Shown: positions 45,135 through 53,655 of the stretch, piece by piece
Numbering within the stretch: the stretch's first letter is position 1
Layout of the letters: each line of letters opens with the position of its first letter
NCBI GenBank assembly: GCA_016278265.1
Contig: JADQCE010000002.1
Coordinates: 434,001 to 498,000, forward strand
DNA from: Halothiobacillus sp.
GTDB taxonomy: Bacteria; Pseudomonadota; Gammaproteobacteria; Halothiobacillales; Halothiobacillaceae
DNA length: 64,000 nt
Direction: 5' to 3'
Made by a program: the position numbers and the translations under genes
Notes under the pieces: generated by a model
Told to the model about the DNA's origin: nothing
Databases searched by the model: none
What the model saw: the letters and a program-made list of their open reading frames with translations, nothing else

Positions 45135-46455
45135 GGTTCATCGCACTTTGGCGTGAAAGGCGTCTCGGATCTTCAGGAAGAAATACTCGGTATCCCGGTA
45201 GCCATAGGCCACTCGCTTGATCACCTTGATGCGGTTGTTCACGCCCTCGAGCACGCTGGTGCTCAGGCGGTAAGTCGCACTGGCGATGATGCTGTGCAGG
45301 TATCGGCCAAGAACGCCGGCAAAGTGCTTGAGCGGCTTGATGCCGCTCTGATCAGCCATCGCCTTCCATGCGTCCCATCGGGACCGCGCCTCGGCTTCCG
45401 ACGGGGCGTACCAGATCTCCTTCAACTGCTCCTTGAGGACGTAGACCGTCATCAACGGGGCGTTGGCCTCCAGCAGCGTGTCGAGTCGCTCTTGCTGCCT
45501 ATCGTCGAGCTTGCCTCGATTGCGAAGCAGCAGCCATCGGCTGCGCTTGACCGCCCGGTAGGCCGGGCGATCCTCCCGGATCGATCTGGCCTGATCGAGA
45601 CGGACCCGATCGACCACCTCCCGACCGAACTTGGCCACCACGTGGAACAGGTCGTAGACGACCCGGGCATTGGGACAGTGAGCCTGCACTTCGAGGTCAA
45701 AGGCCGTGTTCATGTCCATGCCGACCGCCTCGATGCGTTGGCAAGCCGCCGGCCCCAACCATTCGAAGAAGGGGCGGATGGCCGCCCGGGTCTTGCCTTC
45801 ACATACCCACAGCACCTGGCGGCTGTCGGCATCCAGCACGACCGTGGCGTAGCGATGGCCCTTGTGCAGGGCGAACTCGTCCATCAGGAGCCGTCGGATA
45901 TCATTTCGATCCGGCTCCGGCACGTCACGCCGCAGCCGGTCGTAGTCGACCGCTCGGACCGTGTGCCAGTGCAGGCCGAGCAGCTGGCCGACCTGTTTCA
46001 GGGGGGCGATCCTGGACAGGGCCTCGACCCACTCGACCATTGCCTGGGTCAAGTGACGCCGTCCGGCCAGCCAGTCGACCCGCTCCCGCCGAGGCCCGCA
46101 TTTCGGGCACCGCAGCCGCCGTACCGGCACGTCGAGCCAGACGCGGTAGTGACCGAAGTTGCGTTCCCGAACCCGTCGCCGGTGCACGTCGTGAACCAGG
46201 TGCGTGCCGTGATCACAACCACTGCAGAAGGGGATGACATCGGGATCCGGGGCGAGCCGGATGTGGAGCTGGTCCGAGGCCTTCACCTCGTAGGAGTCGA
46301 TACGAAAGCCTTCCCAGAACAGGGCAGACAGATTAGCCTCGGACATGGCGGCAGCCTCCTTGCGGCTTTTGATTTGATTGCTTGGTACCAACCAAATCTA
46401 GCCTGAGGAGCTGCCGTCATTTTTGTGCGTGTTTCACGCGGAAGTGCGAAGAACC
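45135..46455. mobile_element. ISL3-family insertion sequence
   Basis: A 1321-bp element with terminal inverted repeats that match at 21 of 24 positions (45135-45158 and 46432-46455, reading GGTTC...GTGAAA inward). It contains a single ISL3-type transposase gene. No 8-bp target duplication is obvious in the immediate flanks. It inserted 11 bp after the terminator beyond attR, so it is outside the satellite. Confidence 0.85.
45138..46346 (-). CDS. ISL3-family transposase
   Basis: 402 residues from ATG 46346 (AGGAGG at 8 nt). N-terminal zinc cluster CSGCDHGTHLVHD and CPKCGPRRERVDW, then an HTH, then a DDE domain: DEFALHKGHRYATVVLDADS, GMDMNTAFDLEVQAHCPNA with VVYDLFHVVAKFGREVVD, and a late STSVLEGVNNRIKVIKRVAY (E). 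The frame is intact. The stop codon (45138-45140) lies inside the left terminal inverted repeat. Confidence 0.92.
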   Translation of the reverse strand: MSEANLSALFWEGFRIDSYEVKASDQLHIRLAPDPDVIPFCSGCDHGTHLVHDVHRRRVRERNFGHYRVWLDVPVRRLRCPKCGPRRERVDWLAGRRHLTQAMVEWVEALSRIAPLKQVGQLLGLHWHTVRAVDYDRLRRDVPEPDRNDIRRLLMDEFALHKGHRYATVVLDADSRQVLWVCEGKTRAAIRPFFEWLGPAACQRIEAVGMDMNTAFDLEVQAHCPNARVVYDLFHVVAKFGREVVDRVRLDQARSIREDRPAYRAVKRSRWLLLRNRGKLDDRQQERLDTLLEANAPLMTVYVLKEQLKEIWYAPSEAEARSRWDAWKAMADQSGIKPLKHFAGVLGRYLHSIIASATYRLSTSVLEGVNNRIKVIKRVAYGYRDTEYFFLKIRDAFHAKVR

Positions 46456-49380: not shown

Positions 49381-49569
49381 CAGGCCGGCTGGGGCGGCCC
49401 TGCAAGGGGCGCTCTGTGGTAGGATAGCCCGGTTTGCCGCCGCCCCCGTCCGATCGCAGCCACAAGGGCTCTCTGGCGGTCTCGCGGAGTCGCGGTGATC
49501 CGGCGGGGCGTGTTCGAAGGTGATTGCCTTCCTGTCTCGCTGCAGCGGTTGGAAAGACCGCGCCGTTGA

Positions 49570-49600
49570 ATCAGGACACTCGTGGGTATCAGGACACTCG
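49570..49600 (+). repeat. 13-bp tandem direct repeat before gyrA
   Basis: ATCAGGACACTCG occurs at 49570-49582 and again at 49588-49600, just before the gyrA start. Each copy has AGGA, the second serving as the gyrA ribosome-binding site at 8 nt. Duplication could have come from slippage and gives two possible sites. Confidence 0.7.
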
Positions 49601-49601
49601 A

Positions 49602-52181
49602 ATGACTCAGTTCGCTCAAGAAATCTTCCCGGTCAATCTCGAAGACGAGATGCGGCAGTCCTATCTCGATTACGCCATGAGCGTGATCGTGGGGCGTGCG
49701 CTGCCGGATGCCCGTGACGGTCTCAAGCCGGTGCATCGCCGCGTCCTCTACGCCATGCGCGAGCTGGGCAACGAATGGAACAAGCCCTACAAGAAATCCG
49801 CGCGTGTCGTGGGTGACGTCATCGGTAAGTATCACCCGCACGGGGATTCGGCGGTCTACGACGCGCTGGTGCGCATGGCGCAGGATTTCTCCATGCGCAA
49901 GATGCTCATCGACGGGCAGGGTAACTTCGGCTCGGTGGACGGTGATGCTCCGGCCGCGATGCGTTACACCGAAGTGCGCATGGCGAAGATCGCCCATGAG
50001 CTCCTCGCCGACATCGACAAGGAAACCGTCGACTTTATCGACAACTACGACGGTTCCGAGTCCGAGCCGCAGGTCCTGCCCGCCCAGTTCCCGAACCTGC
50101 TGGTCAACGGCTCGTCGGGTATTGCCGTGGGCATGGCCACCAACATCCCTCCCCACAACCTCGGCGAGGTGCTCGACGCCACCGTCGCGATGATCGACGA
50201 CCCGGCGATCAATGATGACGACCTGCTCGCGTACGTGCCGGCCCCCGACTTCCCGACCGCCGGCATCATCAATGGCGCGGCCGGCCTGCGTGATGCCTAC
50301 CTCACGGGTCGTGGCCGCTGCGTGATGCGTGCCCGCGCCGGATTCGAGGACAGCGAGAAGACCGATCGCACCTCGATCGTGATCACCGAGCTGCCCTACC
50401 AGGTCAACAAGGCGCGCTTGATCGAACGCATCGCCGAGCTGGTGCGCGAGAAAAAGATCGACGGCATCGCCGAACTGCGTGATGAATCCGACAAGGACGG
50501 CATGCGCGTCGTGATCGAGTGCAAGCGTGGCGAGATGCCCGACGTGCTCCTGAACAACCTCTACCAGCAGACCCAGTTGCAGAGTGTGTTCGGCATCAAC
50601 ATGGTCGCGCTGATCGATGGCCAGCCACGCACTGTCGGGCTGCGCGAGATCCTCAACGTCTTCCTGCGTCATCGCCGCGAAGTCGTCACTCGCCGCACCA
50701 TCTACGATCTGCGCAAGGCGCGCGATCGCGCCCACATCCTCGAGGGTCTGGCGGTGGCCCTGGCGAACATCGACCCGATGATCGCCGTGATCAAGGCCGC
50801 ACCCACTCCGGCCGAAGCGAAGGTCAAGCTGCTCGAAGGCACGTGGGAGTCCGGTGTGGTCCGCACCATGCTCGAGAAGGCCGATGCCGCCGCCTCGCGT
50901 CCCGAGGCGCTGGGCGACGCGTTTGGCCTGCAGGAAGACGGCAGCTATCGGCTGTCGACCGAGCAGGCCCAGGCCATCCTCGAGATGCGCCTCAACCGCC
51001 TGACCGGCCTCGAGCAGGACAAGATCGTCGAGGAATACGCCAACCTCCTCGAGCGGATCATCGACCTGCTCGACATCCTGCGCTCGGAAGAGCGGCTAAT
51101 GCAGGTCATCCGTGACGAGTTGATGCGGATCCGCGACGAGTACGCCGATCCGCGTCGCACCGAGATCATCGTCGATTACGAGGATCTCTCGATGGAGGAC
51201 CTGATCGCCGAGGAAGATCGGGTGGTCACCCTTTCTCGCGAGGGCTACATCAAGACCCAGTCGCTGACCGACTACCGCAGTCAGCGCCGTGGCGGACGCG
51301 GCAAGTCCTCGACGCGAATGAAGGACGAGGACGTCATCGAGCAGTTGCTGGTGGCCAGTACCCACGCCTGGGTGCTGATGTTCACCAACTACGGTCGGGT
51401 CTACTGGCGCAAGGTCTACCAGTTGCCGCAGGGTGCCCGCGGCGCGCGCGGCCGACCGGTGGTCAATGTGCTGCCGCTGCAGGATGGCGAGCACATCAAC
51501 ACTATGTTGCCGGTGCGCGAGTTCGTCGACGATCACTACATCTTCTTCGCCACGCGCAATGGCCAGGTGAAGAAGACCCCGCTGGTCGACTTCTCCCGGC
51601 CGCGCCAGGCCGGCATCATCGCCATCGACCTGCGTGAAGGCGACCGGTTGATCGGTGCGGCGCTGACCGACGGCTCCCGTGAGATCATGCTGTTCTCCAA
51701 TGCCGGCAAGGCGACGCGTTTCGCCGAGGAAGATGTGCGGTCGATGGGTCGTACGGCGGCGGGCGTGCGAGGGATTCGCCTGCAGGACAAGCAGTTCGTG
51801 GTCTCGTTGATCGTGGTCGATGAAGGCGAGGTGCTCACCGCCACTGAGAACGGCTATGGCAAGCGCACACCCACCGACGACTTCCCCGTCTACAACCGGG
51901 GCGGGCAGGGCGTGATCGCGATCAACACCAGTGAGCGCAACGGCGAGCTGGTCGGCGCGGTGCTGGTGCGCGAGTCCGACGAGGTGATTCTCATCTCGAA
52001 CCGCGGTACACTCGTGCGCACCGAGGTGGCCCAGATTTCCTCGCTGTCGCGCAATACCCAGGGCGTGACCCTTATCCGCCTGGGCAAGGACGAGCGCCTG
52101 GTCCAGGTCGAGCCGGTCGCGGCCATGGATGACGATGGCGACGAAGAGGGAGAAGCCGAAGGACCCGACGCGGAGGAGTGA
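49602..52181 (+). CDS. gyrA: DNA gyrase subunit A
   Basis: 859 residues from ATG 49602. The catalytic tyrosine lies in [18 protein letters not shown] near residue 122. The quinolone region reads [20 protein letters not shown], so the usual Ser and Asp are wild type and no classic resistance change is seen. The C-terminal domain has the GyrA-box (QRRGGRGKS) and beta-propeller blades. The long acidic tail ([17 protein letters not shown]) is common in gammaproteobacterial GyrA. Partner is GyrB, not in the window. Confidence 0.96.
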
Positions 52182-52235: not shown

Positions 52236-52246
52236 ACGATTGAATA

Positions 52247-52513
52247 GGGAAGGCCTGCACGAAAACGATACCGCTCTGCGCGCCTTGAGCCGGGCAGATG
52301 CAAGGCGACCGTCCGCCGCGGAAGAGTGATTCTCTTTCCAAGGACGGCAACGCCGCAGGTGGCCGGCTCAAGGCACGCCCTTCGGGGCCAGGCGAGCCGT
52401 CCATGCTCGGCGTTGCGCCGTCTTGGCGTGGCCGCCGACACGCCGGCGACGACGCGCCTTGATCACGAACGGCTCGCCTGGCCAGAGTGGCATCGTTTTC
52501 GTGCAGGCCTTCC
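52247..52513. repeat. MITE-like multi-hairpin element between gyrA and serC
   Basis: A 267-bp segment closed by a 32-bp inverted repeat with two mismatches (52247-52278 and 52482-52513, GGGAAGGCCTGCACGAAAAC at the outer end). Inside lie two separate large hairpins: one with a 12-bp stem GCCTTGAGCCGG/CCGGCTCAAGGC (52282-52293 and 52363-52374), the other with a 15-bp stem GGCCAGGCGAGCCGT (52386-52400 and 52469-52483). Smaller stems sit in both. TA flanks the left end directly (52245-52246) and the right end after one extra C (52515-52516). No transposase gene is inside. Non-autonomous element or a structured RNA are both possible. Confidence 0.75.
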
Positions 52514-52572
52514 CCTAGACCGGGCGAGACATCGCCCGGTCGCTTGTTTTCCGTTTCTGTTCAGGAGTAGTC

Positions 52573-53655
52573 ATGGCTCGCGTTTACAACTTCAGCGCCG
52601 GTCCGGCGATGTTGCCCACCGAAGTCCTCACCCGCGCACGGGACGAGATGGTCGATTACCAGGGGACCGGCATGTCGGTCATGGAGATGAGCCATCGGGG
52701 CAAGCATTTCGTCGGCATCGCCGAGCAGGCGGAAGCGAACCTGCGCAAGCTGATGAATATCCCGGATAACTACAAGGTGCTGTTCCTGCAGGGCGGCGCC
52801 TCGACCCAGTTCGGCGCCATCCCGTTGAACCTGGGCAACGGCTCGGGCAAGGCCGACTACCTGAACACCGGCCACTGGTCGGTCAAGGCGATCAAGGAAG
52901 CCAAGCGCTTCGTCGATGTCAACGTCGTCGCCGACACCAAGCCGGAAAACTTCACCACGCTGCCGGCCGAGGGCGAGATCAACTTCTCCGCTGACGCCGA
53001 CTACGTCCACTACACGCCGAACGAGACCATCGCCGGCGTCGAGTTCCCCTACATCCCCGACACCGGCGACGTGCCGCTGGTCGCGGACATGTCTTCGACC
53101 ATCCTGTCGCGCCCGATCGACGTCTCGAAGTTTGGCGTCATCTACGCCGGGGCGCAGAAGAACATCGGCCCGGCCGGCTTGACCATCGTCATCGTCCGCG
53201 AGGACCTGATGGGCAAGTCGCGCGACAACACCCCGGCAATGCTCGACTGGGCCACCCAGGCTGAAGCCGACTCCATGTTCAACACCCCGCCGACCTACGC
53301 CTGGTACATGGCAGGCCTGGTGTTTGAGCACCTGCTCGCCAAGGGCGGCCTCGAGGAGATGGGCAAGATCAACCAGCGCAAGGCCGAAAAGCTTTACGCC
53401 GCCATCGACGACAACCCGTTCTACAGCAACCCGGTTCAGCCCGAGTATCGCTCCTGGATGAACGTGCCGTTCATGCTGGCCGACGATTCGCTCGACAAGA
53501 CCTTCCTCGAAGAGGCCGGTCGTCAGGGCCTGGTCACGCTCAACGGTCACCGCTCTGTCGGCGGCATGCGCGCAAGCATCTACAACGCCATGCCCGAGGC
53601 CGGCGTCGATGCGCTGATCCATTTCATGAACGACTTCGCCAAGCGCCACGGCTGA
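52573..53655 (+). CDS. serC: Phosphoserine aminotransferase
   Basis: 360 residues. Converts 3-phosphohydroxypyruvate and glutamate to phosphoserine; also acts in pyridoxine synthesis. N-terminal YNFSAGPAMLPTEVL, QGGASTQFGAIPLNL and the PLP lysine in YAGAQKNIGPAGLTI. RBS AGGAG at 9 nt. It lies downstream of the palindromic element and 46 nt before serA. Confidence 0.95.
   Translation: MARVYNFSAGPAMLPTEVLTRARDEMVDYQGTGMSVMEMSHRGKHFVGIAEQAEANLRKLMNIPDNYKVLFLQGGASTQFGAIPLNLGNGSGKADYLNTGHWSVKAIKEAKRFVDVNVVADTKPENFTTLPAEGEINFSADADYVHYTPNETIAGVEFPYIPDTGDVPLVADMSSTILSRPIDVSKFGVIYAGAQKNIGPAGLTIVIVREDLMGKSRDNTPAMLDWATQAEADSMFNTPPTYAWYMAGLVFEHLLAKGGLEEMGKINQRKAEKLYAAIDDNPFYSNPVQPEYRSWMNVPFMLADDSLDKTFLEEAGRQGLVTLNGHRSVGGMRASIYNAMPEAGVDALIHFMNDFAKRHG

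Follow-up and report, generated by a model that had tools for sequence, protein, structure and literature searches.

Several families of short, palindromic, intergenic repeats that occur in many copies within a narrow range of hosts are known, among them ERIC/IRU, NEMIS/Correia, and RUP; these duplicate TA and have ends other than those discussed below. REP/BIME elements, which are moved by RAYT transposases, are composite palindromic repeats that likewise occupy intergenic regions. Target duplication in combination with long terminal inverted repeats is typical of DDE transposases, not of RAYTs. IS5 is an autonomous element of ~1.2 kb with a transposase, and IS5 ends begin with GGAA; the element described here encodes no transposase. 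The IS5 target duplication is given as YTAR in a passage of one report (PMC10359306) and as CTAG in a passage of another, though the latter paper itself reports 8-bp repeats (PMC10379815). Parts of a further report describe MITEPsy1 of Pseudomonas syringae pv. phaseolicola, which its authors link to ISPsy2 of the IS5 family; its ends are GGAAGGTCTGAAAAAGCC and GTATCCTCTGAAAAAGCC, and it duplicates CTAG or YTAA (PMC3189936). MITEs are the subject of a review (PMC10969869).

The window analyzed here is a 64,000-nucleotide stretch of a Halothiobacillus sp. contig (JADQCE010000002.1, positions 434,001 to 498,000). It carries a composite inverted-repeat element between an 885-codon ORF at 49524–52181 (putative gyrA) and a gene at 52573–53655, for which the earlier name serC is supported by a class-V aminotransferase domain match. 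We consider it probable, at roughly 0.75, that this element is a copy of a 266-bp non-autonomous MITE, probably of IS5 type, in which the pairing of the inner hairpins is kept at the DNA level without strand preference. The kind of element is already known, and its fold is unusually well kept. The features are collected in Table 1.

Table 1. Features of the element in the gyrA–serC gap (window coordinates)
Feature	Position	Strand	Remarks
Whole element	52248..52513	.	266 bp, GGAA...TTCC; probable IS5-type MITE copy; three-way-junction layout
Left terminal inverted repeat	52248..52278	+	Outer-part family consensus GGAAnnTCTGCACGAAT; GGAAGGCCTGCACGAAAACG in window copy
Right terminal inverted repeat	52483..52513	-	
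Inner hairpin 1	52278..52378	+	Blocks AGATGCAAGGCG and CAACGC-GCAG-TG, common to G172 family
Inner hairpin 2	52386..52483	+	Block GCGCCTTGATCACGAAC, partly common to G172 family
Left 4-bp target site copy	52244..52247	+	ATAG
Right 4-bp target site copy	52515..52518	+	CTAG; one extra C (52514) before it
Direct repeat CGCGCCTTGA, first	52279..52288	+	174 bp from second CGCGCCTTGA
Direct repeat CGCGCCTTGA, second	52453..52462	+	

The layout had been described in a sequence-only reading of the window as 32-bp terminal inverted repeats that enclose two perfect stems. Both parts of that description hold: the arms at 52247–52278 and 52483–52514 are 32 nt long and 94% complementary, and the inner stems of 12 bp (GCCTTGAGCCGG/CCGGCTCAAGGC) and 15 bp (GGCCAGGCGAGCCGT/ACGGCTCGCCTGGCC) are seen by eye. 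The borders first given, 52247–52513, needed adjustment, in that the right arm ends at 52514 and the best element borders are those in Table 1. A scan of the window for the 20-nt end, allowing three mismatches, gives two occurrences where 0 are expected, and the GGAAGGCCTGCACGAAAACG end variant of the window copy is carried by 1 of 54 aligned copies. By eye, the inner hairpins (52279–52378 and 52386–52483) look like diverged inverted copies of each other. Stretches of hairpin 1 (query 49–116 or 49–134) also stand alone in the same genome, at ~70–77% identity. Separately, GACCGGGCGAGACATCGCCCGGTC GCTTGTTTTC, directly before serC at 52518–52541, forms a hairpin followed by a T-rich tail and, with small changes, is seen by eye in the leaders of G000–G002 and G004–G010. 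It may act by itself as an attenuator or terminator, unconnected with the element.

The sequence-only reading had named a mobile element as one possibility and proposed a search for further copies of its end, and many dispersed copies exist. In the 2.73-Mb genome to which the window belongs, at least 12 places cover at least 250 of the 268 element positions at 74–100% identity, in addition to many partial matches; 40 of 87 candidates were scored, and the copy count is a lower bound. When 57 genomes were searched for the family, this genome included and with up to 13 candidates scored per genome, matches were found in 10 of the 11 genomes of the same genus (taken to be Guyparkeria) and in 0 of the 46 other relatives. 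The one miss within the genus, G003, is 64% complete. The end pattern at up to two mismatches occurs 2–112 times per genus genome, compared with 0–2 times for a reversed control (G002, 112; G010, 107; G001, 60; G009, 54; G000, 39; G006, 38; G004, 23; G008, 22; G005, 10; G007, 10; G003, 2). Since the reversed pattern also reaches two per genome, the two end copies of G003 represent background. Among the stretches with the same ends, 60 of 61 are named Guyparkeria or are Halothiobacillaceae/Halothiobacillus MAGs. A match in Jonesia (L097) is a lone unpaired end and was taken as chance. The plasmid and phage collections gave no match to the window element; among viral contigs, no stretch carries the long end pattern, and none of the nine with the 18-mer is element-like in the bases adjoining the end.

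At the loci examined, full-length copies occupy 93 independent sites. Removal of orthologous duplicates and of elements with short flanks reduced 92 elements with paired ends to 81 independent ones, of which 57 measure 266–271 bp; the other sizes are 53–98, 142–201, 232, 281, and 334–361 bp. Five loci (L101, L125, L126, L137, and L143) appear by eye to hold Guyparkeria subfamilies with the same outer 18 bases and other subterminal stems, of the types CGATAGTG, TCGATGAC, and AGCCAATG, some of them near the type found in genome G172 (see below).

Comparison of orthologous sites, a further check suggested in the sequence-only reading, gives the family a history of insertion. All six of the other copies tested from the same genome have an empty orthologous site, with the flanks joined, in at least one relative. 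In the two comparisons with gap-free flank alignment at the junction, the empty site retains one stretch of target length, TTCG in G006 for locus L003 and CTAG in G009 for locus L007; in the latter comparison, G009 has another insertion ~130 bp away. At gyrA–serC itself, the element is missing in five relatives (G001, G002, G004, G005, and G006). None is seen in G007 and G008, in which the spacer has diverged, or in the G003 fragment. G010 has a degenerate short form, and G009 a 94-bp form with the same AAAACG end variant as the window copy, a variant that among the 54 aligned copies is the window's own. As 94 equals 268 minus the 174-bp spacing of the CGCGCCTTGA repeats, the G009 form is most simply an internal deletion derivative of the same insertion. 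A phylogeny built from parts of gyrA and serC places G009 next to a sister group that contains G000 (occupied) as well as G001 and G006 (empty); given this scattered presence, losses or recombination must be assumed. Collectively, the many sites, the empty sites, and the target duplication show that the family has moved, and the earlier MITE reading is borne out on all three grounds. A single conserved copy at one locus, which would have spoken for an RNA role, was looked for; the copies are dispersed instead, so the mobile reading stands.

What is duplicated at the target bears on the type of element. Of the 81 independent elements, 19 have identical 4-bp flanks, compared with a mean of 4.87 and never more than 13 in 5000 shuffles; the other 62 are without a perfect 4-bp duplication. 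The perfect duplications are CTAG (8), TTAG (3), CTTG (3), CAAG (2), TTAT (1), CTAA (1), and CCAG (1). The excess persists when all elements with CTAG at either flank are removed: 11 of the remaining 56 are identical (mean 1.72, maximum 10 in 20000 shuffles). A plain 2-bp duplication is also in excess, with identical 2-mers in 34 of 81 elements compared with a shuffle mean of 19.4. However, the 4-bp duplication fits better than a 2-bp TA, which is the less likely reading: among the 34 elements whose inner 2-mers are identical, the outer bases also match in 19, more often than chance predicts (mean 11.8, p 0.0006). Even among the 21 elements with an unusual terminal base, five still have a perfect 4-mer. 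The 4-bp reading takes one former element base from each side, and the element then begins with GGAA. The TA duplication suspected earlier was rightly called not clean; the TA most likely marks the center of a 4-bp duplication that is imperfect at this copy (ATAG/CTAG). YTAR fits 12 of the 19 perfect duplications and 60 of the 162 flank 4-mers, the misfits among the perfect duplications being CTTG, CAAG, CCAG, and TTAT.

These properties recall IS5 of E. coli, for which the passages cited above give a YTAR or CTAG target duplication, CTAG being the commonest here. They also recall MITEPsy1 as far as the cited parts describe it: one of its ends starts with GGAAGGTCTG, as do many copies here (the window copy agrees at 9 of 10 bases), and both elements are multi-copy, have no coding capacity, and show a 4-bp duplication of the CTAG/YTAA type. 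Many Guyparkeria copies begin with GGAAGGTCTGCACGAAT. The differences are that MITEPsy1 is 100 nt long and its end continues with AAAAAGCC, whereas the element here is 266 bp and continues with CACGAAT; moreover, MITEPsy1 was shown to transpose and has ISPsy2 in the same genome, whereas here there are two inner hairpins and no partner IS was found. The target duplication and the MITEPsy1-like ends are the reason for filing the Guyparkeria element as a MITE, probably of IS5 type, a likeness drawn from published descriptions. The earlier remark on IS5-like ends gains support from the 4-bp duplication of CTAG type and from the ten bases with which MITEPsy1 starts, but no IS5-type transposase was found in the genus by way of DDE_Tnp_1. 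The Guyparkeria element shares with ERIC/IRU, NEMIS/Correia, and RUP the short, palindromic, intergenic nature, the many copies, and the narrow host range; it differs from them in fitting a 4-bp duplication better and in its three-armed layout. Within the library searched, no title or abstract beginning among the papers listed describes this element family, and two Guyparkeria genome papers contain no word beginning with "transpos" (PMC9032823 and PMC6504805).

A divergent relative of the family extends the comparison. In a scan of 274 genomes of the class, G172, which belongs to another family, stands out, apart from three Guyparkeria genomes, as the only one rich in end copies (19 + 16 with no more than one mismatch); 26 genomes have one or two, and the others none. 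The G172 elements measure 267–268 or 340–341 bp and are 92–99% alike over the aligned pieces (six compared), and CTA or TTA precedes 8 of 15 ends. Aligned to the Guyparkeria profile, they match from one end to the other at up to 85 bits (the E-values refer to a six-sequence file). Blocks common to both are CTCTGCG, CAGATGCAAGGCG, CAACRCAGCAGATG, GCGCCTYGATNNCGAAC, and CCAGAG; the stem letters differ, and the predicted three-armed fold is the same. The 340-bp form has extra hairpins nested inside hairpin 2. Hairpins within hairpins were seen at L258, L261, L264, and L296 of this genome, with 267, 340–341, and up to 622 bp between ends. The plasmid collection gave no match to a G172 element.

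The sequence-only reading also asked whether copies lie beside transposase genes; a search for three Pfam families (PF13358, PF01609, and PF01797) brought up no transposase gene bounded by such ends. DDE_3 is found in 0 of the 11 genus genomes, and IS630-type mobilization, which the TA had suggested, was rejected on this ground. DDE_Tnp_1 is present in 1 of the 11, the window's own genome, and absent from the one G172 genome. The IS that carries it has unrelated 34-bp ends (AAAGAGGTCAGAACC...) and was rejected as the partner. Solo ends in L088 and L144 resemble IS ends, and no transposase was recognized by eye in the adjoining ORF lists. In the genomes searched, the partner transposase is lost, absent, or unrecognized. 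An ISL3-family transposase gene lies in the window at 45138–46391, ~6 kb from the element; the ISL3 family has other ends and an 8-bp duplication.

A rival reading is a REP/BIME-like repeat moved by a RAYT (Y1) transposase. Of the 11 genus genomes, 6 contain Y1_Tnp, including the five with the most end copies, and the layout is a palindromic composite like that of REP/BIME. Several Y1 (RAYT-like) genes were seen in these six genomes (L150–L166). None of the 17 Y1_Tnp loci, each with ~1–1.5 kb of flank, adjoins an element, however. In G007, three Y1 matches go with only 10 end copies, whereas G006, with 38 end copies, has no Y1 match. The target duplication and long inverted repeats, which separate the Guyparkeria element from REP/BIME, count further against a RAYT, and we consider this origin very improbable. 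The other suggestion made from the sequence was that serC has a structured leader, a regulatory RNA or attenuator kept for its transcript fold, and the fold itself is in keeping with it. Folding of the transcript, as had been proposed, gives -188.5 kcal/mol compared with -120.9 +/- 5.3 for shuffles (z -12.75; 0 of 200 shuffles as good). The opposite strand is also very stable (z -14.16), and a fold with DNA parameters gives z -11.24. The position in the gyrA–serC intergenic region and the strong covariation described below are also what such an RNA would lead one to expect. Yet the site is empty in five relatives that keep the hairpins on both sides, full-length copies are spread over the 93 sites, and the flanking genes, in crude ORF calls, are tandem at 44, divergent at 22, and convergent at 8 of the 74 sites with callable flanks. 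Rfam gave no match at the gathering score, only matches below it. Moreover, a fold kept on one transcribed strand should favor G-U over A-C. Across 93 independent sites and 65 pairs, we counted 5571 Watson–Crick pairs, 115 G-U, 124 A-C, 193 other combinations, and 42 gaps. As G-U and A-C are about equal, no single transcript strand is favored, and whatever keeps the fold therefore acts on the DNA or on the two strands equally; an RNA fold on both strands would escape this argument. With copies at many loci and no strand preference in the covariation, an RNA or attenuator role at serC is hardly tenable.

How the fold is kept in the MITE is a separate matter. The analysis used 65 pairs, predicted from both strands alike, in an alignment of 54 full-length copies from which 3 divergent copies among the 57 had been excluded. 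Standard pairs fill 96.8% of the cells compared with 90.7 +/- 0.3 in shuffles, and in 30 pairs both partners have changed, compared with 13.3 +/- 1.8. Sliding the partners by one to three columns lowers pairing to 29–41%. Relatedness among copies is not removed by these controls. Inheritance might account for this if a few master copies with differing, already paired stems spread and each then decayed. Several pairs indeed have just two frequent types (e.g., columns 83/92 and 159/235), one-sided changes make up most of the ortholog differences, and element identity between orthologs is merely similar to or somewhat above that of the flanks, a difference too weak to claim constraint through slower evolution. 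There are, however, three Watson–Crick types at columns 6/274 and four at 20/261, and the G172 family has the same predicted fold with other stem letters. Among orthologous copies compared under a fixed rule (first versus last member of each group), all 10 groups together have 38 pairs changed on both sides, more than in permutations (16.3, maximum 28), with 19 of the 38 contributed by one very divergent group (L235/L091). The six cleanest groups, in which both flanks match and differences are rare, contain just 4 paired changes (1.17 in permutations, maximum 6, p 0.026). An earlier, hand-picked version gave 16 versus 3.68, and 8 versus 1.98 without the most divergent comparison; its eight comparisons, from 7 of the 10 groups with two from one group, were picked after the ortholog differences were known, and L235/L091 was among the three groups omitted. 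With these results on both sides, inheritance alone is a quite possible explanation, which we put somewhat below even odds.

The paired changes between orthologs hint at correction of the DNA palindrome or at selection for a DNA structure. They fit, weakly, with quasipalindrome template switching, a process that makes a palindrome more perfect by using one arm as the template for the other, as set out in part of PMC7202029 and treated also in a part of PMC8604942. On the other hand, two mismatches between the left and right outer stem persist, A25-C255 in 46 and G28-T252 in 40 of the 54 copies, which argues against free arm-to-arm correction, as such correction should erase them. Selection may therefore be at work as well, directed at the ends or at the folded form; alternatively, most of the covariation may stem from a few master copies. 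A stronger form of the same idea, which we regard as unlikely, is that the folded interior is functional, that is, a required DNA structure with hairpin blocks bound by a transposase or a host factor, in which the stems are selected to pair and the letters drift.

Returning to the MITE with pairing kept at the DNA level, the family would behave as follows. An element with GGAAnnTCTGCACGAAT ends would insert with a 4-bp target duplication, most often CTAG, and would be mobilized in trans by an IS5-family transposase, as the ends and the target suggest. Its interior is no arbitrary filler: the two hairpins stay paired throughout the subfamilies, with neither strand preferred, and at the level of predicted folds they do so in two bacterial families. 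The likeliest cause would be template switching at the quasipalindrome that repairs one arm from the other, to which selection for the folded DNA form possibly adds. Some of the shorter forms may arise by deletion between direct repeats. The gyrA–serC copy lies between a hairpin after gyrA and the one before serC, and it need not regulate either gene.

These results raise the question of how a family that reaches 112 recognizable ends per genome is mobilized, or once was, with no fitting transposase in sight. Should the folded interior be functional, the family would represent a structured-DNA transposable element in two gammaproteobacterial families, without a transposase of its own and moved by an as yet unrecognized enzyme. 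The strand-symmetry count of G-U against A-C can help to separate conservation of a fold at the RNA level from that at the DNA level, and the ~100 natural copies allow palindrome correction to be measured in genomes.
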